A stretch of DNA of 25,911 bases from a virus: positions 1-25,911 of IMG/VR virus record IMGVR_UViG_3300012096_000017, one strand, 5' to 3'. Below the pieces are notes generated by a model. The model was not told where the DNA came from. It worked only from the letters and a program-made list of their open reading frames with translations, and searched no databases. Shown one piece after another: positions 689-21,852 of this stretch (its first letter is position 1; each line of letters opens with the position of its first letter). Both the position numbers and the translations under genes were made by a program.

Positions 689-1440
689 CAGCTGCCACCG
701 CCCCCTGGCCGATCTTGGAAAATGTTGTAAGTCGCGTACGATCGGCTCACGATGGCCGGGTCCACATCCGAGATGTTCTCCTTGATGTTGCGCCGCTTGG
801 CGTTCGCAAGCGCCTCCTTCGCGATCTCAGCGATGTTCTTCTGTCCCGGAGCCATCGGCGGGATCGGAATGCCGAACATGCTGGAGATTTCCACCGCCAG
901 ATTGAACACGAACGCTCGTTCGTATCCCGGCGGCATTGAGAGATTGGTCGCGAGACCCGCAAAGATCACCTGCTGCAGCTGACTATCGAAATAGCACTTA
1001 TAGGCTACGAGCGGGGTGGGAAAGAAGTTCATCACCCCCAGCGGGTACTGGGGATCGTAGAACAGATCGGTGGGGATCTGTGATGTGACCGTCGGGCCGC
1101 GATTGCCGATAATGTTCCAGCGATCGCGAGTGCGGATGTTCAGCAGGAAATTGTTCGCCCCACCGTCCTGGATGTAGGCTTCGATGATGTCGTTGGGACG
1201 CGCGACATTGACCTGCCCGCCAACCCCCACCGTATAGGATTGCTGCCCGGGGACGAGCGTGAAATTCTGCTCCAGAACTTCATAGGCCACCAGGCCCTCG
1301 CCCGCTGTCCAGGAGTCCAGCAGCGAGTTGAGCGCTTCAAGAGCATCGTTCGCCTCGGAGGCTGACGGTACTTCAGTGCCCCCGAGGGCCTGGAGCGAGC
1401 GCATGGCTCGCCGAATCAGATCGTTCGCGCTGTTCGCCAT
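688..1440 (-). CDS. P22 gp4-like tail accessory factor (head completion)
   Basis: About 250 residues starting MANSANDLIRRAMRSLQALG, a helical N-terminus typical of the P22 gp4 family that assembles below the portal ring. The middle has a PGQQSYTVG segment followed by RPNDIIEAYI, common in this family. The ATG at 1440 is preferred. A GTG at 1449 in the same frame would add three residues, and neither has a strong Shine-Dalgarno. The 5' end overlaps the 3' end of the upstream glycosyltransferase gene by about 68 bases, which is longer than the other overlaps here. The glycosyltransferase tail there may be non-functional extension. P22 gp4 itself is shorter; related podoviruses have longer versions. 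Confidence 0.82.
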   Translation of the reverse strand: MANSANDLIRRAMRSLQALGGTEVPSASEANDALEALNSLLDSWTAGEGLVAYEVLEQNFTLVPGQQSYTVGVGGQVNVARPNDIIEAYIQDGGANNFLLNIRTRDRWNIIGNRGPTVTSQIPTDLFYDPQYPLGVMNFFPTPLVAYKCYFDSQLQQVIFAGLATNLSMPPGYERAFVFNLAVEISSMFGIPIPPMAPGQKNIAEIAKEALANAKRRNIKENISDVDPAIVSRSYATYNIFQDRPGGGGS

Positions 1441-3595
1441 GGTCGGCACTCAGTGATCGTAAGTAGGTATCAAAGTTCCCGCTCCAGCCCTTCACCCCGA
1501 AGTGACTCACATCCACATTGGGATAGATCCAGGGCTCGATGCCCAGTTCCTGCATGCGCTTGCCAAATACCCGATCCTCGCCCCAGCGAAGATGGTCTTG
1601 CGTCTGACAGGCAAAGAATTCGGTGTACAGACGATCCGGCGCTGAAGGATCCGCCGCCGGGTCCTTGTAACTGTGCTCCGGATACTTCGTCCTGAAACTC
1701 TCCAGCGCTGTGCGCTTGATGCGCATGAACCCACCGGCGAGGTACTGGCTCTTGATGATGGAGGTTCCATCCGGAAGCGGCTTGTAGATCGTGTACAGAT
1801 TGCCGTTGTCCTCTTCACCGGGCTTTTTCACCCACTGAGGAATGCTCGTCCAGGCATCCCACTTATTTTTCTGTGGGTAACTCGCCACCACGATTTCCTC
1901 GGGGATGTAGAGCATCTTCAAAAAACTCTCCGGATTCCACTGCATGTCGGAATCGATCATGAAGAGATCGGTGGCCATGGAATCCTCGAGGAACCGAGCG
2001 CACAGCGTGTTCTTCGCCCGCTCGACGTAGCTATCCCCGGAGAGCTCGTAATACTCCCACTCGATCCCCATGATGGTGAGCATGCGTGTGGTCGCCACCA
2101 GCGACATGATGTAAGGGCTCCAGCCCTTCATCTCGTAGTAGGCGGTCGCAATGATCACCCGCATCTTGCGGTTGTAGTAGCGTTTTTTGATCTCCGAATA
2201 GGTCATCAACAGGCGGTGCCCATCGATGTTGGTCGAATAGTTGCCCTTGTGGATGCGTGTGTGGGTGAGCGGTTCTTCGACAATGACGATGTTCTCGCGA
2301 TGTAAAAGACGCAGGTACAGATCGTAATCGCACAGCACCCAATCGTCTTTGTTCCATCCACCCACATCTCGAACGGCCGAGGTGCGGTACATCCCAGCAC
2401 CGAAGTACACGTTTCCATAGTACAGGCGCTCCAGCCACTTCTGCCGCGTCTTGTTGACCGCCGGCTCGATCTTCTGCAGGTGATGCGTACCCTTGGGCAC
2501 CGGCACGCCCTGCTCGTCGATGAAGTCGGTCTGTGAGGCCACCATCTCGGTGAAAAGATTGAGCTTGTATTGCTCCAGGCAGCGCGCGACGAAGGTGGGT
2601 TCGAGCAAATCGTCCGCGGCGAGCGTCACATAGAATTCGGTGTCACAGCGGGCCAGCATCTGGTTGTGCGCTTCCTGCACGCCGCGGTTCTCATCGAACT
2701 GCAGCCACTGCACCTGCGGGTACTTGGCGACCACCTCGGCGGTATCATCGGTGGATCCGTCATCCAGCACCATGATCTTGCAGGGCACGGTTTGCTTCAT
2801 CGCCGACTGAATCGCTTCTTCCACGCACCAGGCCATGTTGTAGACCGGGATGCCGATCGTTACTTCCCCCATCGGCGGAAACACCACCTTGTGCTTGGCG
2901 GACAACCGCTTCACGTCGTCCTGAAATTTCACTGCGTTCTCTGCCGAGGGTGCGGTGAGCCGCGTCTCGGGATGGTCAGCATCGGCCCAGCGGAAAGGCA
3001 GCACCGCGCCTTGAAACTTCTTGAAGAACCGCACGAACCATTCGAGGTCCGAACAGTGAAAGAACTCCGGATCAAAGCCCCCGATCTGGTGGTAGCAGTC
3101 CCAGCGCATCAGCATCGAGGCCCCGCCGATGGGAATGTTGTCCATGGTGAGCAAGGTCTTCACCCACGACTCGCGCGAGCGGTTGGCCGCATGCATCAGG
3201 TACTGTTCACTGGAGGGCCGCTCACCCATCGGTCCTTTGCCCGGCATGCCCCACACGCAGCCGATCTCCGGCGCGTTATCCAGGTACGCCACCTGCTGAC
3301 CCAGCTTGTGCTCATCGATGAATTCATCGGCCGACAGCGGCTGCAGAAATTCTCCGGTGGCATGCTCGAAGGCCCAGTTGAATCCATACGGGATGCCGCG
3401 GTTCTCCTCGAACCGATGCAACTGGATCCGCGCATCGTTAAAGCCATCCACCACCTTCTGAATGTCCTCGGTCGATCCATCATCGACAATGATCAGTTCC
3501 CAGTCGGTGAAGCTCTGCGCCACGACACTGGCAATCATCTTCTCCAGATGATCGGACATGTTCAGCACTTGCGTGCAGATGCTAACGCGAGCCAT
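1373..3595 (-). CDS. Three-domain glycosyltransferase (two GT2-like domains plus a C-terminal GT-A-like domain)
   Basis: 740 residues. Domain 1 (about 1-238) starts ARVSICTQVLNM and has DDGST at 38-42, but its expected DxD position reads SADE (88-91). Domain 2 (about 243-475) starts VTIGIPVYNM and has DDGST at 278-282 and AADD at 326-329. Domain 3 (about 478-715) starts MRVIIATAYY and has a DSDM metal-binding-like motif at 548-551, followed by SYPQKNKW and YLAGGFMRIKR. No signal peptide or membrane segment is evident, so it should act in the cytoplasm. It lies between the co-chaperonin gene (14-base overlap) and gp4. The last 25 or so residues are read from DNA that also encodes gp4 and look unstructured. 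Donor, acceptor and product are unknown; virion or host-surface glycosylation is inference. Confidence 0.88.
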   Translation of the reverse strand: MARVSICTQVLNMSDHLEKMIASVVAQSFTDWELIIVDDGSTEDIQKVVDGFNDARIQLHRFEENRGIPYGFNWAFEHATGEFLQPLSADEFIDEHKLGQQVAYLDNAPEIGCVWGMPGKGPMGERPSSEQYLMHAANRSRESWVKTLLTMDNIPIGGASMLMRWDCYHQIGGFDPEFFHCSDLEWFVRFFKKFQGAVLPFRWADADHPETRLTAPSAENAVKFQDDVKRLSAKHKVVFPPMGEVTIGIPVYNMAWCVEEAIQSAMKQTVPCKIMVLDDGSTDDTAEVVAKYPQVQWLQFDENRGVQEAHNQMLARCDTEFYVTLAADDLLEPTFVARCLEQYKLNLFTEMVASQTDFIDEQGVPVPKGTHHLQKIEPAVNKTRQKWLERLYYGNVYFGAGMYRTSAVRDVGGWNKDDWVLCDYDLYLRLLHRENIVIVEEPLTHTRIHKGNYSTNIDGHRLLMTYSEIKKRYYNRKMRVIIATAYYEMKGWSPYIMSLVATTRMLTIMGIEWEYYELSGDSYVERAKNTLCARFLEDSMATDLFMIDSDMQWNPESFLKMLYIPEEIVVASYPQKNKWDAWTSIPQWVKKPGEEDNGNLYTIYKPLPDGTSIIKSQYLAGGFMRIKRTALESFRTKYPEHSYKDPAADPSAPDRLYTEFFACQTQDHLRWGEDRVFGKRMQELGIEPWIYPNVDVSHFGVKGWSGNFDTYLRSLSADHGEQRERSDSASHALAPGPRGH

Positions 3596-4462: not shown

Positions 4463-4948
4463 CTACTCCTTGTGTCCTTTCAGGTAAGAGACAACCATCT
4501 CTTCCCCGACTCTCGCGATGAGTTTCTCATAATGACCCAACGAAACATTGCAGTTGTGGCACAAAATACCGCGGACACTGTCGGCCTTGCATTGAATGAA
4601 TACCCTCTTATCACTTCCGCCAACATGATCAATGTGCCATTTGCCTTTGCCACCAGGTTTGTCTGTCTTACATAAAGCACAGACGCCACCTTGTGCAGCA
4701 AGCATTGCGTTGTACCCTTCAAGAGAGAGTCCATACTTTCTGAACCTCCCACTCGTATCGAACCAGCGCTTCACTGCTGCCCGTGCACGAATGACGTTCT
4801 CGTCGTAGTGCTTCCCACTTCTCGTCTTCTTGCACTCCTTGCACTCGGTGCTATATCTCGCCGAAAACGTCGGCCGCGCTGCCCTTAAAAAATAGAACAA
4901 TTCCATCGGCAACGTTTGCTTGCAGGTACCACACTGCTTCGTTTCCAT
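4463..4948 (-). CDS. Endonuclease VII-type HNH nuclease
   Basis: 161 residues. An N-terminal zinc-ribbon-like part has C6xxC9 and C36xxC39. The C-terminal domain matches T4 endonuclease VII closely: C90xxC93, then HIDH at 105-108, then C130xxC133 followed at once by N134. In endonuclease VII the zinc cysteines, the D40-H41 pair and N62 have the same order, and the cysteine-to-DH spacing (14) is the same. YGLSLEGYNAMLAAQGGVCA precedes the first zinc knuckle, as in the family. It may resolve branched DNA during packaging, or be a free-standing homing-type nuclease. Its lower GC content and position between the coat and accessory head genes favour a mobile insertion. A strong GGAGG Shine-Dalgarno lies inside a predicted hairpin. 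Confidence 0.88.
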   Translation of the reverse strand: METKQCGTCKQTLPMELFYFLRAARPTFSARYSTECKECKKTRSGKHYDENVIRARAAVKRWFDTSGRFRKYGLSLEGYNAMLAAQGGVCALCKTDKPGGKGKWHIDHVGGSDKRVFIQCKADSVRGILCHNCNVSLGHYEKLIARVGEEMVVSYLKGHKE

Positions 4949-4999: not shown

Positions 5000-6190
5000 T
5001 CAACCTGCCAGTCTCACCGCCAATTCGTCGTAGTAAACAGTTGTTCCATAAAGAATATCCACTCGTGTCGGAAAGACGTCATTGTTGATGTCGAAAGCCC
5101 TTACTACCCGCATGGATACATTGCGATAGGTCTCGCGAGCTGCGAAGTCCACGCCCTGCGGGATTTCCAGGGGCACCATCACCAGGCCGAAGGCATCGCG
5201 GGTCCAGGCGAGATTGGTCGGGTTGGTCGCCGCGGTGGTGCCGGTGAGCCAGACCACGCTGGATGCGACCTGCAATGGGCCTGAGACGTTCTGGTACGGG
5301 CCCGAGGTCGCGATCGAGGGTGAGAAGAGCACCGTCCAGGTGGAGCTCGTTGGCGTGGTGGAGGCGGTGACCACGAAGTTCTTCAGCACGCCGGTGGACT
5401 GCCGGTTCTGCGGGTTCACGTTGAACACGTTCGCCACTGTGAACACTTCACCGGCCAGAATGGATTCGGTCGCCGTACCGCCGAACATGGTGGTGGAGGC
5501 GCCGGTAAAGGTGGCGCTGGTGATCACCATCGCAATGCTGGTGTTGTGCGAGGCACTGGTGAGCGATGGGATGTTCTGGTCCATATAGACTTCGTAGTTG
5601 CCCACGGTCGCGAGATACCCTTTCACCAGAGCTTCCTTGGCGGTAGGCATGACGAAGAACGTGGACAGGCTATTGGCCAGAGACCAGTACGCATTGGGGT
5701 TCAGGCACAGCGTCCGGTTGTCCTGAGGGGCGGCGTTGTCATCGTGGCGCCGGCCCACCAGTTGGATGCTGGTAGAGAATGTGCTCGGCGTGGTCCCCGG
5801 AGTGCCGACCAAGTTGGAGATGCCGGAGAAGTTCTGCAGAACGTCGAAGTCCACCTGATTGGCGAGACTGGCCATCCCGGGCTTCAAGTAACGCTCGGAA
5901 AACTCTTCGATCGTGAGCGTGAGATCCTGGGAGGTGAACTGGAAATCGACGTGCTTTTGCAGATTGATGGTGATCGAGACTGAGGGCTCGGAAATATCCT
6001 GAACCTGCAGGCCCGCACCAGAAGCAACCGTGAACTTGTTGGGCTTACGAATCGTGAGTGAGTTCCCAATCTTGACGAATTGGTTCTCGAACTTCCTGTT
6101 GACTCGATTGGCCGCAACCAGGTTGTTCTCCAGAATCACCAGCGATTCTTTGGTGATGATCGTTGGAGTAAGCAGGGTTTGCGACGACAT
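5000..6190 (-). CDS. P22-like major coat protein
   Basis: 396 residues beginning MSSQTLLTPTIITKESLVIL, followed by NRKFENQFVKIGNSLTIRKP and VDFQFTSQDLTLTIEEFSER. These are hallmarks of the P22 gp5 coat family (HK97 fold with an inserted I-domain). Residues about 245-295 (GEVFTVANVFNVNPQNRQST onward) align in pattern with the beta-rich I-domain insertion. Length is slightly below P22 coat (430). AGGAG lies 8 bases before the ATG. It follows the scaffold gene by 11 bases, the expected order. P22-type coat folding is known to depend on GroEL/ES in ts mutants, which is relevant to the nearby co-chaperonin. Confidence 0.92.
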   Translation of the reverse strand: MSSQTLLTPTIITKESLVILENNLVAANRVNRKFENQFVKIGNSLTIRKPNKFTVASGAGLQVQDISEPSVSITINLQKHVDFQFTSQDLTLTIEEFSERYLKPGMASLANQVDFDVLQNFSGISNLVGTPGTTPSTFSTSIQLVGRRHDDNAAPQDNRTLCLNPNAYWSLANSLSTFFVMPTAKEALVKGYLATVGNYEVYMDQNIPSLTSASHNTSIAMVITSATFTGASTTMFGGTATESILAGEVFTVANVFNVNPQNRQSTGVLKNFVVTASTTPTSSTWTVLFSPSIATSGPYQNVSGPLQVASSVVWLTGTTAATNPTNLAWTRDAFGLVMVPLEIPQGVDFAARETYRNVSMRVVRAFDINNDVFPTRVDILYGTTVYYDELAVRLAG

Positions 6191-12136: not shown

Positions 12137-12367
12137 CTAGTGCACCATTTGCAGAGTGAGCTCGCACGGCGGTTCACCGGATTCAATCAGATTGATCGCG
12201 GCATCCTTGAATTCTTTGCGTGCCTCGCGGATTGAATGGGCCCCGTTATCAGCGACCTCCATGAAGTAGCTACCGAGGTCAGTGGTAGCAATGAAGATGA
12301 TCAGGCGCTCATCGGTGGTGATGTCGTAGCGCTCGTGCTCGTGGAAACGAACGGTGACGCTATTCAT
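12137..12367 (-). CDS. Small hypothetical protein between terminase and portal
   Basis: 76 residues from ATG 12367 (MNSVTVRFHEHERYDITTDE). This start is chosen over an in-frame GTG at 12379 because its ATGA overlaps the terminase stop. It has an alternating strand pattern, then a helix (HSIREARKEFKDAAINLIES) and CELTLQMVH. It ends immediately before the portal ATG (TAG ATG). No family is recognised. The compact alpha/beta pattern and coupling on both sides make it a real gene of the packaging operon. Confidence 0.7.
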   Translation of the reverse strand: MNSVTVRFHEHERYDITTDERLIIFIATTDLGSYFMEVADNGAHSIREARKEFKDAAINLIESGEPPCELTLQMVH

Positions 12368-13653
12368 GAGCCCATCCACTGCGTGCCAGCGGTCTCGCGC
12401 TCGTACTGCACGATCTGCACCCGCGGGGTTTCAGGCTTGGTGGTCTGCTGGCCGATCGATTCACCTAGGGTGCGCAGCGCATCGGCAGCGTGTGAGTTCT
12501 CATCGTGATCGGGATCGCGCGACCACTGCCCGTGCTCATCGATGGCAAACCGATAATGTCGCAGCGCCTGCAGACCGTCCTGGCACTTGGTGTCATCGAT
12601 GTAGAAGCGATTGAATAGCGTGCGCACCGCATTGATGCCCAGCGCCACCTTGGGGATACGTTCCAGGGTCACCACCTTGCGGCCCACCAGTTTCATCTGC
12701 CGGGAAATGGAGGGGGCGGCCAGCGACTCATGCTCGGCATCGTGAGGGAGATAATCGGTCCCATACACGTACGGCCGGTCCTGCAGCACCTTCAGGTAGT
12801 GGGGCAGCTTCTGCAGCCGGTTCTGGTAGAAATCAATGAGGTGATATTCAAATCCGACTTTCTGCGCAAACCAGATCGAGGTGCAATCGGAAAATCCCAG
12901 GTCCCAGAAGGTGTGCACCGGCACGCGCTCGTCGTAGGGCACTTTGCCGATGCGGCCGTCGGTCGTTGCAGCACGTAATTCGTTGGCATAGATCGCACCT
13001 TCGAGCGTAACCCGGCACTCGCCCTCCCAGATGTTCAGATACGCATCCGGATCGCGAGATTCCAGCAGCAGCATCTCATCGCGCAGCACATCGGGAAACC
13101 ACGGGTTGTCGCGCCAGGAGACCTTGCGCACCACCGCCTTCGGTGGTGGATTGCGTACCCAGCGCTTGTAGGTCTCATCGGTATCCAGTTCCGGGTTGAA
13201 CGTGATCCAGATCTCGCTTGCGGGCCGGCGGATGGTCGGGATCAGCGTCTCCCAGCTGGCCTTGCTCACCATCTGGGCCTCTTCCACCCAGACGATGTCG
13301 ACACCCTCGTAGCTCTTGATCTTGGCCACGTTGTGGCGCAAGCCCTCAAAGCCGATCTCAGTGCCGTTGATGCCGCGGATATTGGCGTTCTGGATCTGGT
13401 AGAACTCCTCCAGTCCCAGTTCCACGACCTGGTCGCTGAGCAGCTTGTGCACGCTGTCCTTGATCGAGTGCTGGAGCTCGCGCCCGCACAGGATTCGCAA
13501 CGGTTTCTGCCAGCCGGCGATCAGCAGCGCCCGGGCCACCCCCCAGGATTTCGCCGCCCCCCGCCCGCCATAGAGCACCTTGTAACGGTGCGGCTCAAAC
13601 AGGATTTCCAGGATCTCCGGGAACTTCCACTTCGCTGTGATGGGGTCGGACAA
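12364..13653 (-). CDS. Large terminase subunit (packaging ATPase/nuclease)
   Basis: 429 residues. Walker A-like GGRGAAKS is at 29-36 and Walker B VDIVWVEEA at 118-126, with the catalytic glutamate pair. The coupling-like motif is ITFNPE at 150-155. The RNase H-like nuclease has FWDLGFSD (D251), a mid acidic site near FYIDDTKCQDG (350-360) and SHAADALR (D391). This is the standard layout of phage TerL, which cuts concatemers and pumps DNA through the portal. The start is TTG 13653, with no ATG nearby. Its 5' end overlaps the small-terminase candidate by 59 bases, so coupled translation is likely. Confidence 0.93.
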   Translation of the reverse strand: MSDPITAKWKFPEILEILFEPHRYKVLYGGRGAAKSWGVARALLIAGWQKPLRILCGRELQHSIKDSVHKLLSDQVVELGLEEFYQIQNANIRGINGTEIGFEGLRHNVAKIKSYEGVDIVWVEEAQMVSKASWETLIPTIRRPASEIWITFNPELDTDETYKRWVRNPPPKAVVRKVSWRDNPWFPDVLRDEMLLLESRDPDAYLNIWEGECRVTLEGAIYANELRAATTDGRIGKVPYDERVPVHTFWDLGFSDCTSIWFAQKVGFEYHLIDFYQNRLQKLPHYLKVLQDRPYVYGTDYLPHDAEHESLAAPSISRQMKLVGRKVVTLERIPKVALGINAVRTLFNRFYIDDTKCQDGLQALRHYRFAIDEHGQWSRDPDHDENSHAADALRTLGESIGQQTTKPETPRVQIVQYERETAGTQWMGS

Positions 13654-14390: not shown

Positions 14391-15164
14391 TCAGAAAGTC
14401 GGCTCGGCGCGGTCCAAAACCCCGGATTTCTGATGGTTCAGCGGGAATGGCGGCCCGCGGCGTGAAATAAACACGCTGCCCTCTTGGTGCCGGATCGGCA
14501 TGTGCTCGAGTTTCGTCGCCGGCTGCCAGTCGTTCTTCTGGGTATACACCAGCGCCCCCAGGCGCTCAAAGTGATCCAGCACGCTCACCGCGGTGGTCAT
14601 CCCCCGCAGCTCGCACAGCAGATCCAGGTGCTCCAGGTGCTCCGCGGTAACGCAACGCAACAGCACGTCTTCGTGGCCCTCGACATCAAGCTTGGCGAAG
14701 TCGGCCCAGTGAAACAGCGGCCGGCAGTCCACACAGGGTACCGTGAGGTTCATCAGCGGCCCATAGCCGGTCTTGGAACCCTCCAGGTACGATCCGGTCA
14801 TGTTGTCGACCACCCGCACGAAAGGAGCCATGCCCTCGCGATCGCTCACCGCCGCCCGGTAACGCTCGATGTGAGTGGCGCCATTCTTCTTCAGATCACA
14901 GTCCATGATCGAGAAAATCGACGGATCGGGCTCGAAGGCCTTCACCTGCCAGCCGAGTTTGGCCATCAGCATGCTGTGCAGACCGAGGTTCGCACCGATA
15001 TCGAGCACCCGCTTGTAGCGATGCCGGTTGTGCTGGTACAGCGCGAAGATGATCAATTCGTTCGGGCCGAAAAGATCGAGACTGTCGACCTTGCCCATGC
15101 TGGTGTAGGGAAAACGAATGCCGATCTGCTCGCACAGCCAGGCCTGAGCGCGCTCCCTAGACAC
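14391..15164 (-). CDS. FkbM-type SAM-dependent methyltransferase
   Basis: 257 residues. SAM-binding motif I is VLDIGANLG at 53-61, with the acidic FEPDP at 77-81. The AKLDVEGHE at 157-165 is the hallmark IKxDVEGxE of the FkbM family, O-methyltransferases that often act on sugars or polyketides. The GTG start at 15164 overlaps the end of the ThDP-enzyme gene by 8 bases. It follows the SDR and ThDP enzyme in one coupled string, so it probably modifies the same product. Substrate is unknown. No transmembrane segment is seen. The C-terminal 30 residues (GPPFPLNHQKSGVLDRAEPT) look like a loose tail. Confidence 0.85.
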   Translation of the reverse strand: MSRERAQAWLCEQIGIRFPYTSMGKVDSLDLFGPNELIIFALYQHNRHRYKRVLDIGANLGLHSMLMAKLGWQVKAFEPDPSIFSIMDCDLKKNGATHIERYRAAVSDREGMAPFVRVVDNMTGSYLEGSKTGYGPLMNLTVPCVDCRPLFHWADFAKLDVEGHEDVLLRCVTAEHLEHLDLLCELRGMTTAVSVLDHFERLGALVYTQKNDWQPATKLEHMPIRHQEGSVFISRRGPPFPLNHQKSGVLDRAEPTF

Positions 15165-16197
15165 TCAGCGCCGCCTTTAACTCTTCTGGATCCAGCCGCG
15201 GGTCGCCATCCTCCAGCCCCGCCCCGAAGCGCACCTGGGGCTCGATGCCCTCATCCGGATCGATGTGAAGCTCGAGCAGCGCTTCGTAAGCGTAGCTGCG
15301 CGCCACCCGGCTGAAATCAGCCATCGACAAGAAATCCTCATCAGTGGCCACATAACGGCCATCGAGCCACTGACGCTGCGTCTGACGACACATGGCATGG
15401 CCCTTGTTGTTGAATAGCACCACCGTGATCGGCCATTGGTGCTTCACAATCGTGGCCAACTCCGGGGTGTGCACCGACAAGCCGCCATCCCCGGTGATGC
15501 ACCAGACCTTCTTGCCGGTCGCCAGATGAGCCCCGATCGCCGCCGGCAAGCCATAGCCCATCGGGGTGTTGTTCCAGGCGTGGATGAAACGTTGCCCGCG
15601 GAACTTGAACGCCTGCATCATCCAGCCCAGCACACACCCGGTATCGCTCACGATCACGTCATCGGGTTTGACCATGTTGCTCAACTGCGCACAGATTTTG
15701 TAGGGTTTTGCGCTCGAACACGGGAACTGTGCCCTCCACATCGCGATCCTCAACTGCCACATCTGGGTGTCTGAGCGCGGCTGCTCGATCTGCAGAAAAT
15801 CCCGCGCATCAGCGCAGATGCCCTCTACGGCTCTTCCCAATTTGCCGAACTTGTCGATCTCTTCGGGGTCGATGTCCACCATGGTGATGCGCGCTCGCGG
15901 AGCGAAGGAAGATACCGGCGAGCCCGTAGCCTTCGTATCCAGGCGTGTGCCCACCGTGACGATACGATCGGCCGTCTGTACCGCAAAGTTTGCATGGCGT
16001 AGCCCATGAGTTCCAAAGCGTCCCACATTCAGGCGGTGATCATCGTGCATCAGATCAGCCGCCCCCCAAGTGAGCACCACAGGCACGTTCGCCCGCTCCG
16101 CCCATTTCACAGCGAGCTCGCGAGCGCACTGCACGCCGCCGCCGAAGACGATCAGCGGGCGCTGTGCGCCGTTAAACAGATGCGCGCTGGAGGTCAT
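15157..16197 (-). CDS. Acetolactate-synthase-like ThDP enzyme, central and ThDP-binding (PP) domains
   Basis: 346 residues if started at ATG 16197 (MTSSAHLFNGAQRPLIVFGG); the open frame extends to 16242. The central domain covers roughly the first 140 residues (RPLIVFGGGVQCARELAV, RIVTVGTRLDTKATG). The PP domain has WNNTPMGYGLPAAIGAH, then the ThDP motif GDG, 24 residues, then NN (CITGDGGLS to LFNNKG). It is in a +1 frame relative to the 177-aa upstream ORF that supplies the PYR domain; together they give the usual length of about 520-560 residues. A GAG 7 bases before the ATG could support re-initiation, so a genuine two-subunit enzyme is possible. The alternative is a frameshifted gene. Confidence 0.8.
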   Translation of the reverse strand: MTSSAHLFNGAQRPLIVFGGGVQCARELAVKWAERANVPVVLTWGAADLMHDDHRLNVGRFGTHGLRHANFAVQTADRIVTVGTRLDTKATGSPVSSFAPRARITMVDIDPEEIDKFGKLGRAVEGICADARDFLQIEQPRSDTQMWQLRIAMWRAQFPCSSAKPYKICAQLSNMVKPDDVIVSDTGCVLGWMMQAFKFRGQRFIHAWNNTPMGYGLPAAIGAHLATGKKVWCITGDGGLSVHTPELATIVKHQWPITVVLFNNKGHAMCRQTQRQWLDGRYVATDEDFLSMADFSRVARSYAYEALLELHIDPDEGIEPQVRFGAGLEDGDPRLDPEELKAALSV

Positions 16198-16705
16198 CGG
16201 GTATCTCGAGCAGCACCGGGCCGGGACGCTGCTGCTGGGCAATACCCAGTGCCGTTATCAGCGTGCTCGATCCAAAGTCAGGATCAAAATCTGCAGCCCG
16301 ATCGCACTGGTGTGCCCACTTGGTGATCGGCCGCGCAATCTGCGTCATCGGACACTCCTGGAACCCATACTGGCGCAGTTTCGGGTTGATGTTCTCTTTG
16401 AGCCGTACCCTCGTCTGCTGGCCCACGATGTACAGCACCGGCACGCTGTCATAGAACGAAGTTGCAATCGCGGTCACCAGGTTCGTTGCGCCAGGCCCCG
16501 AAGTAGCCAGAGCAACGCCCAGGCCGTGCAACCGAGCATAAGCATCAGCGGCAAAACCGCAAGCGGCCTCCGACTGCGGGCATATGATCGCCACTCCAGC
16601 ACGATCCAGGCTATCAAGCAGATGCAGATTGGCCCCCCCTGATACAGCAAAGACATGGCGCACCTGTTCCTTGATGAATTGCGCGATGAGATCAGAAATC
16701 TTCAT
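16172..16705 (-). CDS. Acetolactate-synthase-like ThDP enzyme, N-terminal PYR domain
   Basis: 177 residues starting MKISDLIAQFIKEQVRHVFA. It matches the PYR domain of acetolactate-synthase-like enzymes: FAVSGGANLHLLDSL, the cofactor-activating glutamate E46 in CPQSEAACGFAADAYAR, and ATSGPGATNLVTAIA. It ends GPVLLEIPDDLQRASV, exactly where the PYR domain normally joins the central domain. Its stop overlaps the downstream ORF by 26 bases (to ATG 16197). Its start overlaps the SDR gene by 14 bases. Relatives in sugar clusters, such as YerE of yersiniose biosynthesis, add a two-carbon branch from pyruvate to a nucleotide keto-sugar. That role here is inference. Confidence 0.8.
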   Translation of the reverse strand: MKISDLIAQFIKEQVRHVFAVSGGANLHLLDSLDRAGVAIICPQSEAACGFAADAYARLHGLGVALATSGPGATNLVTAIATSFYDSVPVLYIVGQQTRVRLKENINPKLRQYGFQECPMTQIARPITKWAHQCDRAADFDPDFGSSTLITALGIAQQQRPGPVLLEIPDDLQRASV

Positions 16706-17354
16706 GCCGTCTCAGCTTCCAGGTGTCAGCACTGAACCGCTGTGATCGATAATCGTCCGACACGCAGATGTTGCGGCCCCCGATGGTTGCTTTCTGAGCC
16801 TCCATACACCAGCGCAGACACTCGTAGATTTTCGCCATTGGCGTGCCGCCCACATTCATCGCCTCGCTCAACCTCTCGTTGATCCAGCGCGTATCGATCG
16901 TCGGCTTGTGAATCTTAGTGAGCACAATTCCGGGGGCCAATGCATACCACTTCACATCGGTCTCCACATTCAGATGCTCGACGGCCTTCAATAGCGCCAT
17001 CTTGGCCACGTTGTAGGCGCTGTACCCGAGCTCGATCGTGTTCGGATTGGAGCCGGCCAGCATGCACACCTGCGCGTTCGCATTCCTGTGCTTCCACAAC
17101 TGCCGGATGAGCCGCAGTGGCAGCAGCAGATTGCTCTCCATGGCATCGCACCACTGCACATCATCGGCATCCTCCCACTTGCCGATCGATCCCAGCGCCC
17201 CGATCGCGCAAATGATCAGATCCCAGGCCGGTTCCATCGGTATCAACAGCTCTTCGCCCCGGTGCCAGCCATACACACGATGCCCGTCTTCTTGCAGGAA
17301 CTTGATCAGCGCTCGCCCAATATCACTGAAGCTTCCCAGGATAATGACCTTCAT
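16692..17354 (-). CDS. Short-chain dehydrogenase/reductase (SDR)
   Basis: 220 residues. The N-terminal nucleotide-binding loop is GSFSDIG (7-13), a variant of TGxxxGIG. N74, S101, and the YxxxK pair Y113/K117 (YSAYNVAK) form a complete SDR catalytic set. CAIGALG (49-55) fits the NNAG position loosely. Length is slightly short for a classical SDR. ATGA coupling to the preceding HTH gene and overlap with the ThDP enzyme place it in one pathway. A keto-sugar or acetyl-branch reductase would fit, by analogy with reductases that partner YerE-like enzymes. Substrate cannot be read from sequence. Confidence 0.83.
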   Translation of the reverse strand: MKVIILGSFSDIGRALIKFLQEDGHRVYGWHRGEELLIPMEPAWDLIICAIGALGSIGKWEDADDVQWCDAMESNLLLPLRLIRQLWKHRNANAQVCMLAGSNPNTIELGYSAYNVAKMALLKAVEHLNVETDVKWYALAPGIVLTKIHKPTIDTRWINERLSEAMNVGGTPMAKIYECLRWCMEAQKATIGGRNICVSDDYRSQRFSADTWKLRRHEDF

Positions 17355-17587
17355 ATGCAGCGATGAATGGTGATATTGCCATCGCGCACAATCCGTTGTT
17401 CCTCGACCATCGCCCAGCCGGTACCGTTGCGAATGCGCAGAATCGTATTCGGATTTACCTTGAAGCGCTTGGCCAGCACACCCGTGCGCTCAGGAGATGC
17501 CCGGATGATCTCTACATCCTTCAACGTGAGCTTGGCGCGTCCATTTTCCTCACCGGGATGCGCACCGCCAAACCGATGTATTTTCAT
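17351..17587 (-). CDS. Small helix-turn-helix protein
   Basis: 78 residues. The core ENGRAKLTLKDVEIIRASPE followed by TGVLAKRFKVNPNTILRIRN is the NGRAKLT...V..IR......LA..F.V...TI..I..G.WA pattern of phage HTH domains that are often fused to HNH homing nucleases. Here no nuclease domain is present. ATGA overlaps both the upstream structural gene and the downstream SDR. It may be a small DNA-binding regulator or the remnant of a homing endonuclease; the operon coupling favours a functional gene. Confidence 0.72.
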   Translation of the reverse strand: MKIHRFGGAHPGEENGRAKLTLKDVEIIRASPERTGVLAKRFKVNPNTILRIRNGTGWAMVEEQRIVRDGNITIHRCI

Positions 17588-18282
17588 TGTGCAATCACCT
17601 GTGGGTAGGGATTGATATACGGCGCACTGCTCGCTCCGGCCGGCAGCAATGCGATCGCCATCGCGATCTGTATCGATGAATGACTCAAGCTGGCATCCAC
17701 CACCGTGGTCCCCGCACCGGACCCGGCCAGCAAGTCCTCAACGAGCTCGCCACTGGTCAGCCCTCCGATCACCTGCGCATACGCAGCCCCTGCGGTGTAG
17801 GTGCCCAGCCCCAAGCCAGTGTCAAAGAACGAGCCCACGATGAGATCACCCGCCTGCAAGCCGGTAAGATTCACACTGCCCGTACTGGTCGCCGCCAGCG
17901 CTTGTTCGATATGCGCCCCCGCACCATCCAGGCTCGCACTCGCTCCGCCGTACTCCACCGCCATCGGCTTCCACGACCAGGTGCTCGCCGAATTGCTCGC
18001 GGCAAGAGTAATCGTAGAAGCTAACGCCTGGCCCACGATGCCCTTGAAGTGCATGCCCGTGTCGTTGTCGTTGGCGTCGACCACGGTGCCCACCAGCAAA
18101 TAGTTGTTGCCCTGCTCATCCTTGCACGTGGGTGAGCTGACCGAACTCACGTTCACCGTTGCACAGATGTACATCAGATGGCCCACCGTCATCACGCCCA
18201 GGCCACCACTGGAGCTGTTCAGCACCGCCGTACTGCCAATCACCGTGAAGGTGCTGGTCGATTGCGCTCGGGTGAAGGCCAT
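17584..18282 (-). CDS. Beta-rich tail/virion surface protein
   Basis: 232 residues, rich in S, T, G, A and V with alternating strand patterns. SPTCKDEQGNNYLLVGTVVD and LTGLQAGDLIVGSFFDTG resemble repeated beta-sandwich phage structural proteins. ATGA overlap with the HTH gene downstream and a 6-base gap after the 252-aa gene put it in the tail module that begins with the tailspike. A receptor-binding accessory or tail-appendage role is inferred from position and composition. Confidence 0.62.
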   Translation of the reverse strand: MAFTRAQSTSTFTVIGSTAVLNSSSGGLGVMTVGHLMYICATVNVSSVSSPTCKDEQGNNYLLVGTVVDANDNDTGMHFKGIVGQALASTITLAASNSASTWSWKPMAVEYGGASASLDGAGAHIEQALAATSTGSVNLTGLQAGDLIVGSFFDTGLGLGTYTAGAAYAQVIGGLTSGELVEDLLAGSGAGTTVVDASLSHSSIQIAMAIALLPAGASSAPYINPYPQVIAQ

Positions 18283-18288
18283 CTGCGC

Positions 18289-19047
18289 TCACCAGTAGCC
18301 CATGTAGCGCAGGTTGCCGGATTTGAAAGCAGGAGTAAACCCGGCGGCTGTCTGTGTCGCCCAATTCGATAACAGCGGAAGATCAGTCGCAATGAAGTTT
18401 GTAACTCCAGCCCCGGTTGCGGTGATCTTGATAATGGCGATTCCAGAATAGGTCCGCGTCGTCGCAGCGGGCCCTGTGTAACTTCCGGTGGATGTAAAGT
18501 TCAAATCCACTTTAGAACTCGCAGCAATATCCTCCATGGCAGAGATGCCGGCGGCCGATGGAGTCAACAGGATTCCGTTTTGATAAAGCCGCCAAATGCT
18601 ATCTGCATCGCTCGAGACAAAGATGTTAGAGGTGATAACGGTAGGATTCGGATATGCGTTGTACTCGTTAAAACCGGCCCCACCACCAGAATCGGCAATA
18701 AACAAATCTGTGTTGACACCCCTATTGATGTGAATCGTTTCTGTCCCCGCAACCTGCAATTGAAGATCTACCGACCCATTGAGAATGCTGGCCGAAGTGC
18801 TCATCCCGATGACAATGGCCCAGGGGCGCGTTACTGCAGCAGCCGGCAGTGTTCCTGATTCCAAAAAAGTGGCATTGCAAACGACATTACCACTACCGTC
18901 TACCGTAGCACCAGAGCCGTTGATTACCGTGATTGATGTCGCATTAACTTGTCCGGCCCAGCTTGTGAAGTTCCCAACGATACCCAGGTTCTGCTGCCAG
19001 TATTCAATCGCAGATGAGTAACTGAGCGATGGAAACGGTACACTCAT
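18289..19047 (-). CDS. Tail/virion protein with concanavalin/LamG-like beta sandwich
   Basis: 252 residues. The pattern SVDLQLQVAGTETIHINRG, DADSIWRLYQNGILLTPSAA and TYSGIAIIKITATGAGV resembles the LamG/concanavalin-like fold (a WRLYxNG strand followed by an sGiaIik strand), common in carbohydrate-binding phage appendages. The match is by eye and moderate. The C-terminus ends in a short aromatic tail, NLRYMGYW. ATGA overlap with the 163-aa gene upstream. Likely a tail component that contacts host glycans. Confidence 0.6.
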   Translation of the reverse strand: MSVPFPSLSYSSAIEYWQQNLGIVGNFTSWAGQVNATSITVINGSGATVDGSGNVVCNATFLESGTLPAAAVTRPWAIVIGMSTSASILNGSVDLQLQVAGTETIHINRGVNTDLFIADSGGGAGFNEYNAYPNPTVITSNIFVSSDADSIWRLYQNGILLTPSAAGISAMEDIAASSKVDLNFTSTGSYTGPAATTRTYSGIAIIKITATGAGVTNFIATDLPLLSNWATQTAAGFTPAFKSGNLRYMGYW

Positions 19048-19535
19048 GCATACCCTCGATTAGCACGTCCAAACCATAACGCCTGACAAATCACGTCCGC
19101 CGCCTGCGTCGCGCTGAGCATCGTAGCCCTGAAGATGATCGCGGTCGTCATATCGCTCGTGATTGCAGTGTCCTGCACGTAAACGACGGCGCCAGCCAAG
19201 ACCAAGTTAGACGGATCGCTGTACCACGCACCGCAAATCTTCGATGTGCTCTGCAACAGTCCGTTGATCTCCCACCAAACCCTGATCTGCTTGTTGCTAT
19301 CGGTGAACGTGTGGTCGAAAAAGCTCGTTCCGTTCAAGTACAGCCGGACCCGCTTATTGTTCCCGTTGGCAGCGGTGACGAACTGCGCCGTACCTCGCAG
19401 CACATCGCCGTTGTTAACCCGACGCGCGCCGATCGACAGGCCCGTAGCCTGCGTTCCAATGCAATCCGTCTCGACGTTGTTCAAACTCGGGACCGTCGCC
19501 GTCCCCAGGGCACCGATGATGTCGTAGTCGGTCAC
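19044..19535 (-). CDS. Small beta-rich tail/virion protein
   Basis: 163 residues from GTG 19535, whose GTGA overlaps the tailspike stop. It contains RVRLYLNGTSFFDHTFTDSN and AAIIFRATMLS-type strands (TTAIIFRATMLSATQAADVI), consistent with a small beta sandwich, perhaps distantly like the 252-aa neighbour (shared LYxNG motif). No catalytic signature. Position suggests a tailspike-associated or receptor-binding accessory protein. Confidence 0.6.
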   Translation of the reverse strand: MTDYDIIGALGTATVPSLNNVETDCIGTQATGLSIGARRVNNGDVLRGTAQFVTAANGNNKRVRLYLNGTSFFDHTFTDSNKQIRVWWEINGLLQSTSKICGAWYSDPSNLVLAGAVVYVQDTAITSDMTTAIIFRATMLSATQAADVICQALWFGRANRGYA

Positions 19536-21748
19536 GACGCCATTCTCCAGATGCCCTGTTCCATCGCTTTGTAGGTCATTGGAAGACCGGCATTTTGCGT
19601 CGAGTCAACACTGGACATGAATCGAATTCGGAACACTGGTGATCCTGCCGCCGTTACCACTGACTTGGCGATGCACACTGTCACATCGTATAGCGTCGAT
19701 TGGGTGATCATGCAAATACGCTGCCAGCGCTGCGGCCATATCGTCACAGCGCCTGGCGGAGATGTAGTATCCGAACAGCCCTTGCTGTAGGTTGCCGCAA
19801 CGCCCGAATTTCCACCGTGAAAGATACTCATCCGCCACGCTTGAGACGCATGCTCGTTGTAAATCTCGAAGTTTATGGCTCTTGCAATCGCGGTACCGCC
19901 AGGCGCATTCGATAGAGCGGACCAGCCACGAATGAACGACGAGACAGCGGTGTCTGCTGTTCCAGATGGGAACGAAATCCGCGTCACATAATCATTCGTC
20001 GCACTGTCGAAGATCGTTCCAACCGTAATACCACCCGTGCAATCAGGACGGATCGCGTTGAAGTTGGGGTGAAGCGACGATGGGAAACTGCCTTCATAGC
20101 GGCCTACTTGATAGCCAGAAATAATGAGCAGCCCAGTGTTTTCAGCAACAGAGCCGGGACCAGAAACTGAGCCGAACGCCGTGCGCGGGAATTGGTTGCA
20201 ATTTTCAATGATCGACGTGAAATTCGGTCCGATATAGACCGCCTCATCGAGCCAGCATCCCGCATCGGCGTCCTCGGCACGCACGTTGTACGGATTGCCT
20301 GAAAAAGCGGCGGTACCCTCAACGTACAGATTGGCTTGAGGACCACCTAGGCGAGCGTAGATCCGTCGACCGGCGGAATAGTCTTGAAGATTGTAGAGAG
20401 TTACCGTGTTATTGGCATCGACGAACTTGCTGCACGTCTTGATCGTCGCGTTACCGACCGCGTTAGCAAAATCATCCCAGAACGGATACTGACGCGAATC
20501 CACAAACACGGTCAGTCCCGAAGTCGTGGCTGAATTCACCATGATCGATCCTGGATCGGAAACCGTCAGCACTTGCGTCCCGCTCGCCGATGCAGAGATC
20601 GCCGTCACAGTAAACGGGATCCAGTTCATCCCAGCTGCACCGCCGGTGAATCCAGAGAAATAAACGCTGTCTCCAACGATGATCCCGTAGCCGAAACCGC
20701 CGTTCCCAGCCCAGTTATTGCACCCTCCCGTCTCTGTTTGATTTGATCCTGGCGCGTCCATTGTGAACGTCTTGCCAGATCCGCTAACCGTTACCGTGCT
20801 TCCACTGATCTGAAGATACATCTGAAAGTTGAATTCGTCAGATCCTCCACTCAAACGAAACTGACCGCCGATCGAGTACGGAGCACTGGAGAAAGCATGA
20901 TCACAGATCACCGCTGACCGAGACCATGAATCATTGAGTTGCATCAACGATGGAACGCTGGCGGACTGTCCCTGCGAAAGAAAGAGGTAGTTAATTCCGC
21001 ACGACTGCGATAGAAACTTTCTCCATCCATACAGATCCACACCACCACCAAAGACTGATGACGGCCGTAACAGAAAACCTATCCCGCAATTGTTTGCTCC
21101 ATGCTGCTCATGATCCTGATATTGAGTGGTCTGAAGATCATGTCCCACATAAAAACTGTTGCACTGAATGCGTCGAGCGACGAGATTAGGGTTGCTGTTC
21201 TGGAATTGATTGGGACTGCCACCCGTAGTTAACGACGACCAGCGCCACCCCGTCAAGTAGGTGTTATGGCCGGCCTGACTATTACCATCGATTTTGAATC
21301 CTTCGTACAGCCCCCTGTTCATCACCTGATAGCCGCCGCCACCGTTCTGAGTATTGACAATCCCCACCATGTAGGAATTGTTCGATGGCCCATAGCCTAA
21401 ATTAGAGAGTGGTGCTGTCGCAGCAATCCAAGTGTCGTAGCCTCGATGATCTCCGTAGCCATTAAACTGAAAACTGATCGGAACAGAGGTTCCGTAACTG
21501 CCCCCGCCATCACCATTGATCCATTCCGTAATCGGCTGAACCGCCAGAACTGTATTGATCGCAGCGCCCTGGTCGCTACCGTTGGCAACAACACCGCCCT
21601 GCTTGGTGATGTGATAGCGCTCCGTACCGGCGCCTCCGACTTGCCCAGCGGTGGCGCTCATGGTCACACCCGACTGCACCACCGGCACGAGCTCGCTACC
21701 CGTCAGGCTCACTACAGCCGGCAGCTGCGAGATCTTCTTATCGCTCAT
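19532..21748 (-). CDS. Tailspike/tail fibre protein
   Basis: About 738 residues from ATG 21748 (MSDKKISQLPAVVSLTGSEL). This start is preferred over a frame extension to 21793 because a GGAGG lies just upstream and ATGA couples it to a micro-ORF. The N-terminal KKISQLPxxxxLTGSELVPV is a common phage tail-fibre/tailspike opening. The middle (about 100-550) is rich in G, N, S, aromatic residues and strand-turn patterns (NRGLYEGFKIDGNSQAGHNT), as in right-handed beta-helix tailspikes. The C-terminus (RMSIFHGGNSGVAATYSKGC) looks like a lectin-like cap. Depolymerase activity is possible but no catalytic motif is identified. Visibly lower GC than the head genes, typical of exchanged receptor-binding genes. 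Confidence 0.8.
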   Translation of the reverse strand: MSDKKISQLPAVVSLTGSELVPVVQSGVTMSATAGQVGGAGTERYHITKQGGVVANGSDQGAAINTVLAVQPITEWINGDGGGSYGTSVPISFQFNGYGDHRGYDTWIAATAPLSNLGYGPSNNSYMVGIVNTQNGGGGYQVMNRGLYEGFKIDGNSQAGHNTYLTGWRWSSLTTGGSPNQFQNSNPNLVARRIQCNSFYVGHDLQTTQYQDHEQHGANNCGIGFLLRPSSVFGGGVDLYGWRKFLSQSCGINYLFLSQGQSASVPSLMQLNDSWSRSAVICDHAFSSAPYSIGGQFRLSGGSDEFNFQMYLQISGSTVTVSGSGKTFTMDAPGSNQTETGGCNNWAGNGGFGYGIIVGDSVYFSGFTGGAAGMNWIPFTVTAISASASGTQVLTVSDPGSIMVNSATTSGLTVFVDSRQYPFWDDFANAVGNATIKTCSKFVDANNTVTLYNLQDYSAGRRIYARLGGPQANLYVEGTAAFSGNPYNVRAEDADAGCWLDEAVYIGPNFTSIIENCNQFPRTAFGSVSGPGSVAENTGLLIISGYQVGRYEGSFPSSLHPNFNAIRPDCTGGITVGTIFDSATNDYVTRISFPSGTADTAVSSFIRGWSALSNAPGGTAIARAINFEIYNEHASQAWRMSIFHGGNSGVAATYSKGCSDTTSPPGAVTIWPQRWQRICMITQSTLYDVTVCIAKSVVTAAGSPVFRIRFMSSVDSTQNAGLPMTYKAMEQGIWRMAS

Positions 21749-21852
21749 ATGCCTCCAGGACCGCAGCAGACGAGCGTAGCGCCACGATCGCACCGACCAT
21801 GGGGTAGGAACAGCATCCCACCCCCGATCGTGCCTCCTATGGCCACTGGCAT
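21745..21852 (-). CDS. Possible 35-residue micro-ORF before tailspike
   Basis: ATG 21852 gives MPVAIGGTIGGGMLFLPHGR followed by a cysteine-containing tail ending CCGPGGI. Its TGA overlaps the tailspike ATG (ATATGAGC). The glycine-rich hydrophobic start could be a short membrane-associated or leader peptide. Evidence is limited to coupling and open frame. It may instead be chance in the leader of the tailspike. Confidence 0.3.
   Translation of the reverse strand: MPVAIGGTIGGGMLFLPHGRCDRGATLVCCGPGGI

Follow-up and report, generated by a model that had tools for sequence, protein, structure and literature searches.

What pathway could four overlapping enzyme genes encode in the genome of a P22-like phage? 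We addressed this question for an entire IMG/VR record of 25,911 bases (hereafter the window), which is classed as linear and is probably a genome fragment. The window encodes both a P22-type portal (PF16510, 3.7e-181) and a P22-type coat protein (PF11651, 1.5e-35), and with its scaffold and large terminase genes it is, judged from its sequence, a P22-like podovirus. The four coupled, overlapping reading frames described by the initial annotation are all present on the minus strand (17354-14391) and encode, in gene order, an SDR, two ThDP-enzyme proteins and an FkbM methyltransferase. These genes and the two head-region genes discussed below are:

1373..3595, minus strand: three-domain glycosyltransferase, 740 aa, in the head gene region (PF00535, 2.5e-41; phrog_1574)
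5000..6190, minus strand: P22-like coat protein (PF11651, 1.5e-35)
14391..15164, minus strand: FkbM-type methyltransferase, 257 aa (TIGR01444, 65.9 bits; PF05050 just below cut-off)
15157..16197, minus strand: ThDP TH3+PP-domain subunit with a GDG...NN motif, 346 aa (PF00205, 1.6e-30; PF02775, 7.1e-32)
16172..16705, minus strand: ThDP PYR-domain subunit, 177 aa (PF02776, 8.2e-30), with a catalytic Glu46 that is invariant in the phage set
16692..17354, minus strand: SDR reductase, short form, 220 aa (PF00106, 7.5e-06, just below the gathering cut-off), with YxxxK

Neighboring cassette genes overlap by 14, 26, and 8 nt in gene order, and the ATG of the SDR gene overlaps the stop codon of a preceding small gene by 4 nt. 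The open frame of the ThDP C-terminal half extends from a TTG at 16242, and its start is most likely the ATG at 16197 (346 aa) rather than this TTG. The four genes would be co-translated as one module. A promoter scan gave no sigma-70-like site, and terminator-like sites were near the chance level. GC and GC3 of the cassette are similar to those of the structural genes of the same phage and thus give no compositional hint of recent arrival. The cassette had been placed beside a tail module; this label is unproven, since the three upstream genes checked (17584-18282, 18289-19047, and 19532-21793) match no Pfam or PHROG family. A scan of 399 genomes of the order Burkholderiales (E <= 1e-100) matched only an already-known MAG, and so, at this strict limit, provided no link to a host or prophage. 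The window's large terminase (12364-13653) is ~29-38% identical to those of phages that share 55-66% of the portal, and 67-68% identical to the terminases of L043 and L045. This disagreement between terminase and portal identities among relatives suggests terminase exchange within the lineage.

The FkbM identity first proposed for the methyltransferase holds, as TIGR01444 scores 65.9 bits vs. an NCBIfam cut-off of 37.7 (PF05050, 21.1 vs. 22.7). The SDR had been described as having complete motifs, and only its YxxxK site, which is kept in every relative, is intact. Asp takes the place of the middle Gly in its glycine motif (GSFSDIG), a segment of ~25-30 residues found in bacterial relatives is missing, and its two Pfam scores fall slightly short of the gathering thresholds (26.0 against 26.6 and 25.4 against 27). 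We propose that the SDR reduces a branch carbonyl.

Between them, the two ThDP proteins carry the PYR, TH3, and PP domains, the catalytic Glu and a GDG-type motif, and the Pfam matches are far over cut-off (TPP_enzyme_N 8e-30, TPP_enzyme_M 2e-30, TPP_enzyme_C 7e-32). In a tree of 32 proteins, the cassette enzymes form one group with JanthE, bacterial relatives and fused viral homologs (support 100/99), apart from E. coli IlvB, IlvI, Gcl, and PoxB and from plant AHAS; JanthE, the single YerE-like reference in this tree, and some outgroups have long branches. AHAS binds its acceptor through an Arg and a Trp (R377 and W574 in the plant enzyme). All cassette enzymes have Lys in place of the Arg and Thr in place of the Trp, and JanthE likewise has Thr. 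The second subunit, modeled with AlphaFold (mean pLDDT 81), matched JanthE first and AHAS next, and the best PDB sequence match of the enzyme is 8rph, which is JanthE, a crystallized YerE-like enzyme with a CDG motif (PMC12188165). YerE-like enzymes are described as the sole decarboxylase subclass that uses isolated ketones, and their natural acceptors are NDP-keto-sugars of LPS (PMC12247030). Based on family placement and gene context, the ThDP pair would work like YerE, as a ketone carboligase. The initial annotation had named grouping with housekeeping acetolactate synthase and absence of the cassette from related phages as signs of a recent passenger of bacterial metabolism. Neither is seen: the tree and the JanthE fold match set the enzyme off from acetolactate synthase, and related phages do carry the cassette.

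An acetolactate synthase that feeds the branched-chain amino-acid supply during infection would agree with the names of many of the best-scoring general models, and with the ilvB annotation of viral contigs elsewhere (PMC8226683). However, the two halves score 189.9 and 121.2 bits against the acetolactate synthase model TIGR00118, well below its 538-bit equivalog cut-off, the tree position and acceptor residues disagree, and the linkage of the enzyme to the SDR is constant and to FkbM usual. We give this supply role hardly any credence; a housekeeping acetolactate synthase is ruled out by the tree, acceptor residues and score cut-offs. In karst lake viral contigs, the gene table places ilvB alongside CDP-glucose and GDP-mannose dehydratases (PMC8226683), and the genes so labeled may in fact encode YerE-like enzymes. 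Four other viral contigs (L014, L017, L020, and L021) encode a fused, distant YerE-like ThDP enzyme (C-terminal half 28-31% identical) that lies near a dTDP-glucose-dehydratase-like gene and is positioned near JanthE in the tree.

The YerE-type enzyme of the cassette is encoded by two genes. In 10/10 split-gene phages, the window included, the split falls at the same domain boundary, after PDD-x-x-R, where the PYR domain ends, and the second gene begins at a start codon of its own close to the stop of the first. Two overlap geometries occur: the second ATG lies 26 nt upstream of the first gene's end, in frame +1, in the window, L001, L006, L008, and G016, and the genes overlap by 4-7 nt, in frame +2, in L002, L005, L007, and L010; L009 has frame +1 and a possible GTG start. 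The linker seen in fused homologs is reduced in most split phage enzymes, and close bacterial relatives are fused in 12 of 12 cases. Catalytic motifs are intact in both halves, and both are under purifying selection (dN/dS 0.11-0.29 for the ThDP halves and FkbM in non-saturated pairs; several pairs are saturated, and the portal comparison of the window with L040, computed out of frame, is excluded). The conserved split and these dN/dS values rule out a sequencing error or pseudogene as its cause. One further phage record, L003, starts inside the gene and has a bacterial-like linker; it is read as fused because its frame runs uninterrupted from the end of PYR into TH3. This fused enzyme nests within the split phage clade, but a single split clade is not rejected at the 5% level (p-AU 0.075), so the split may have arisen once or repeatedly.

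The 26-nt frame overlap in the window and the fused L003 homolog would also suit programmed frameshifting that joins the two frames into one protein. Yet the frame offsets given above differ between phages and RNA folding at the junction is unremarkable compared with shuffled sequences (z -1.4), which disfavors a shared programmed frameshift, and each split pair has a separate start codon near the first gene's stop; we regard frameshifting as very improbable. The preferred reading is that the two proteins assemble into one YerE-type carboligase, in which the PYR subunit would give the catalytic Glu and the TH3-PP subunit would hold the diphosphate end of ThDP. The split-gene transketolase of Carboxydothermus likewise works as two polypeptides, but belongs to another ThDP superfamily (PMC7661550).

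Other carriers were sought by IMG/VR scans and one record search. The gene order recurs in other phages, a search that the initial annotation had proposed: the split pair is found in nine more records (L001, L002, L005-L010, and G016), and the fused record is a tenth. The SDR accompanies the split pair wherever the record reaches (L009 begins inside N, the first ThDP gene) and FkbM is present in most of the nine, the common order being SDR - N - MC - FkbM. L007 (G006) and G016 have no FkbM homolog, so methylation is not universal. In three records a gene is inserted between SDR and N: an HNH gene in L005 and a truncated sugar-dehydrogenase-like gene in L006 and L008. The latter (L006 8871-9524, L008 8859-9500) encodes a ~215-aa protein that matches just the middle of NDP-sugar dehydrogenases, and longer homologs lie nearby in the bacterial clusters L022 and L023. 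Among the head genes of the window lies an endonuclease VII-type gene (4463-4948); this gene and the HNH gene of L005 (1620-2132) possibly encode homing endonucleases. A 4.9-kb relative, L040, has a portal 90% identical to that of the window and an FkbM, 70% identical, that is cut by the contig end. Carriers span several phage types, as neither G002 nor G009 matches the P22 portal. A collection of cultured phages gave no useful relatives: its ThDP matches were ~27-32% identical, acetolactate-synthase-like or unannotated, and no FkbM match was found. The 12 bacterial ThDP relatives, of which those in L022 and L023 are nearest to the phage clade, are mostly encoded beside SDR, FkbM, and NDP-sugar genes, and six clusters (L022, L025-L028, and L033) combine several NDP-heptose-type activities with SDR, ThDP and usually FkbM.

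Genes that could supply the sugar adjoin the cassette in several phages. Upstream of it, L006 (G005) and L008 (G007) encode a GmhA-like SIS-domain isomerase, a transaldolase, an epimerase, a nucleotidylyltransferase, a PfkB kinase and a dTDP-glucose-dehydratase-like enzyme. Heptose-type models were scanned in L006, of which the L008 genes are homologs. The best NCBIfam models were gmhA/phosphoheptose isomerase for the isomerase, heptose-7-phosphate kinase (rfaE_dom_I) for the kinase and heptose-1-phosphate adenylyltransferase (rfaE_dom_II) for the nucleotidylyltransferase, each scoring below its equivalog cut-off. G016 has the order epimerase, dehydratase, SDR, N, MC, nucleotidylyltransferase, kinase, isomerase, so that two gene arrangements are seen among the three P22-like relatives whose cassette adjoins NDP-heptose-type genes (G005, G007, and G016). 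In L001, a dehydratase immediately precedes the SDR. An NDP-deoxy-keto-sugar setting is thus seen in L001, L006, L008, G016, and the bacterial relatives; the window fragment has no sugar-activation genes, and no heptose-type kinase was found in it, in G002 or in G006. As the fuller operons encode NDP-heptose-type enzymes, the keto-sugar is probably a heptose. This is the likeliest reading of the sequences and, with all phage scores below equivalog cut-offs, falls short of proof.

Which molecule would receive the sugar is suggested by the glycosyltransferase in the head gene region. Its 740 aa comprise two GT2 domains and a third, phrog_1574-like domain; the structural model is of modest quality (pLDDT 70, pTM 0.46), with K4 chondroitin polymerase as best match. 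No membrane-like segment was found in the protein, which is apparently cytosolic. The link to the cassette made by the initial annotation is reinforced by co-occurrence, the glycosyltransferase being present in 7/7 cassette carriers of the window's lineage (the window, G004-G008, and G016). Wherever the lineage record reaches, its gene lies between the coat and adaptor genes, and the coat protein is a possible acceptor. The cassette is missing from all nine longer records that come from distant P22-like phages, whose portals are 39-42% identical, and one of the nine encodes a shorter GT2 protein over cut-off. Neither this count nor the 7/7 is phylogenetically independent. In L001, a TPR protein at the matching place behind the capsid gene is possibly a glycosyltransferase.

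Three partial records (G013, G014, and G018) have the glycosyltransferase and no visible cassette. Since G018 encodes a radical-SAM protein and an O-methyltransferase before the terminase instead of the cassette, exchangeable modification genes that supply one fixed transferase would fit. The radical-SAM protein, of the SPASM type, and the O-methyltransferase thus take the pre-terminase place in a relative with the glycosyltransferase and no visible ThDP cassette, and a B12-binding radical-SAM-like protein is encoded upstream of the G016 cassette; the loci concerned are L047 1344-2944 and L127 2552-4561.

The same pathway could instead place its product on a host surface glycan, and so alter the receptor or exclude superinfection. 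YerE-like enzymes of known product make LPS sugars, the bacterial cassette relatives lie among NDP-sugar genes and glycosyltransferases, and part of the glycosyltransferase matches are O-antigen conversion families. Against this target stand the missing membrane-like segment and the position of the gene, which is flanked by the coat and adaptor genes in every lineage member that shows this region. Moreover, the P22-like carriers yielded no integrase (G002, of another phage type, has one), which makes lasting lysogen conversion less likely. We consider a host-glycan target unlikely, if still worth weighing. Phages also glycosylate modified bases, and attachment of the sugar to phage DNA as a hypermodification could be accommodated by the incompleteness of the window record. 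However, a thymidylate-synthase-type base-modifying gene is found in 0/7 carrier records, several of them ~40 kb, and a DNA target seems decidedly improbable.

We therefore favor, with a probability of about 0.6 judged from families and context, a phage-borne module for a C-branched, O-methylated sugar nucleotide that is transferred most plausibly to the virion. The carboligase would decarboxylate a 2-keto acid, e.g., pyruvate, and join the two-carbon unit to an NDP-4-keto-deoxy sugar at its ring ketone; reduction of the branch carbonyl by the SDR and methylation of a hydroxyl by the FkbM enzyme would follow. In the fuller operons, the NDP-heptose-type isomerase, kinase, nucleotidylyltransferase, and dehydratase of the phage would make the keto-sugar, which in the window phage may be supplied by the host or made by genes that lie beyond the fragment. 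The coat-side glycosyltransferase would then transfer the sugar, most plausibly onto a virion protein. The branched, methylated sugar pathway suggested initially is thus supported as far as gene families and genomic context go, and from these we infer the sugar, reaction and target. In its favor, the same gene set occurs in nine other phage records of different phage types; speaking against it are the absence of FkbM in G006 and G016, the shortened window SDR with its altered glycine motif, the glycosyltransferase in three partial records that show no cassette, the lack of sugar-activation genes in the window fragment and heptose-enzyme scores under equivalog cut-offs. A more specific version, tentative and on balance doubtful, is that the P22-like lineage converts sedoheptulose-7-phosphate to an O-methylated C-branched deoxy-heptose via a phage-only split YerE-type carboligase, and that a dedicated glycosyltransferase puts it on the coat protein or on other proteins of the virion.

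The closest known enzymes are the YerE-like lyases (YpYerE, ErwE, and JanthE), which share the domains and the association with NDP-keto-sugar genes, with JanthE as the tree and fold match. The cassette enzyme differs in having GDG where JanthE has CDG, in being split into two genes and carried by phages, and in being linked to FkbM and to genes of the heptose type instead of CDP-dideoxyglucose genes. Bacterial SDR/ThDP/FkbM/NDP-heptose-type clusters (L022-L033) share the enzyme set, but their ThDP gene is fused in 12/12 and the clusters are longer. Mycobacteriophage glycosyltransferases have been proposed to modify the capsid (PMC11256854); a phage glycosyltransferase and proposed capsid glycosylation are shared with that report, which lacks a phage-made branched sugar nucleotide. 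We found no description of a YerE-like enzyme or a branched-sugar cassette in a phage, which is weak evidence of novelty because the literature covered was open-licence papers. Relative to this searchable literature, two things are new: the phage-borne YerE-type cassette with its conserved two-gene enzyme, and the connection of this cassette with a coat-side glycosyltransferase and with NDP-heptose-type genes.

If the favored reading is true, phages would make a rare branched sugar, beyond transferring one, and there would be a natural two-subunit form of a ketone carboligase class that attracts interest in biocatalysis. Viral genes labeled acetolactate synthase may be sugar-branching enzymes, and whether virions are decorated with self-made phage sugars becomes a directly testable question.
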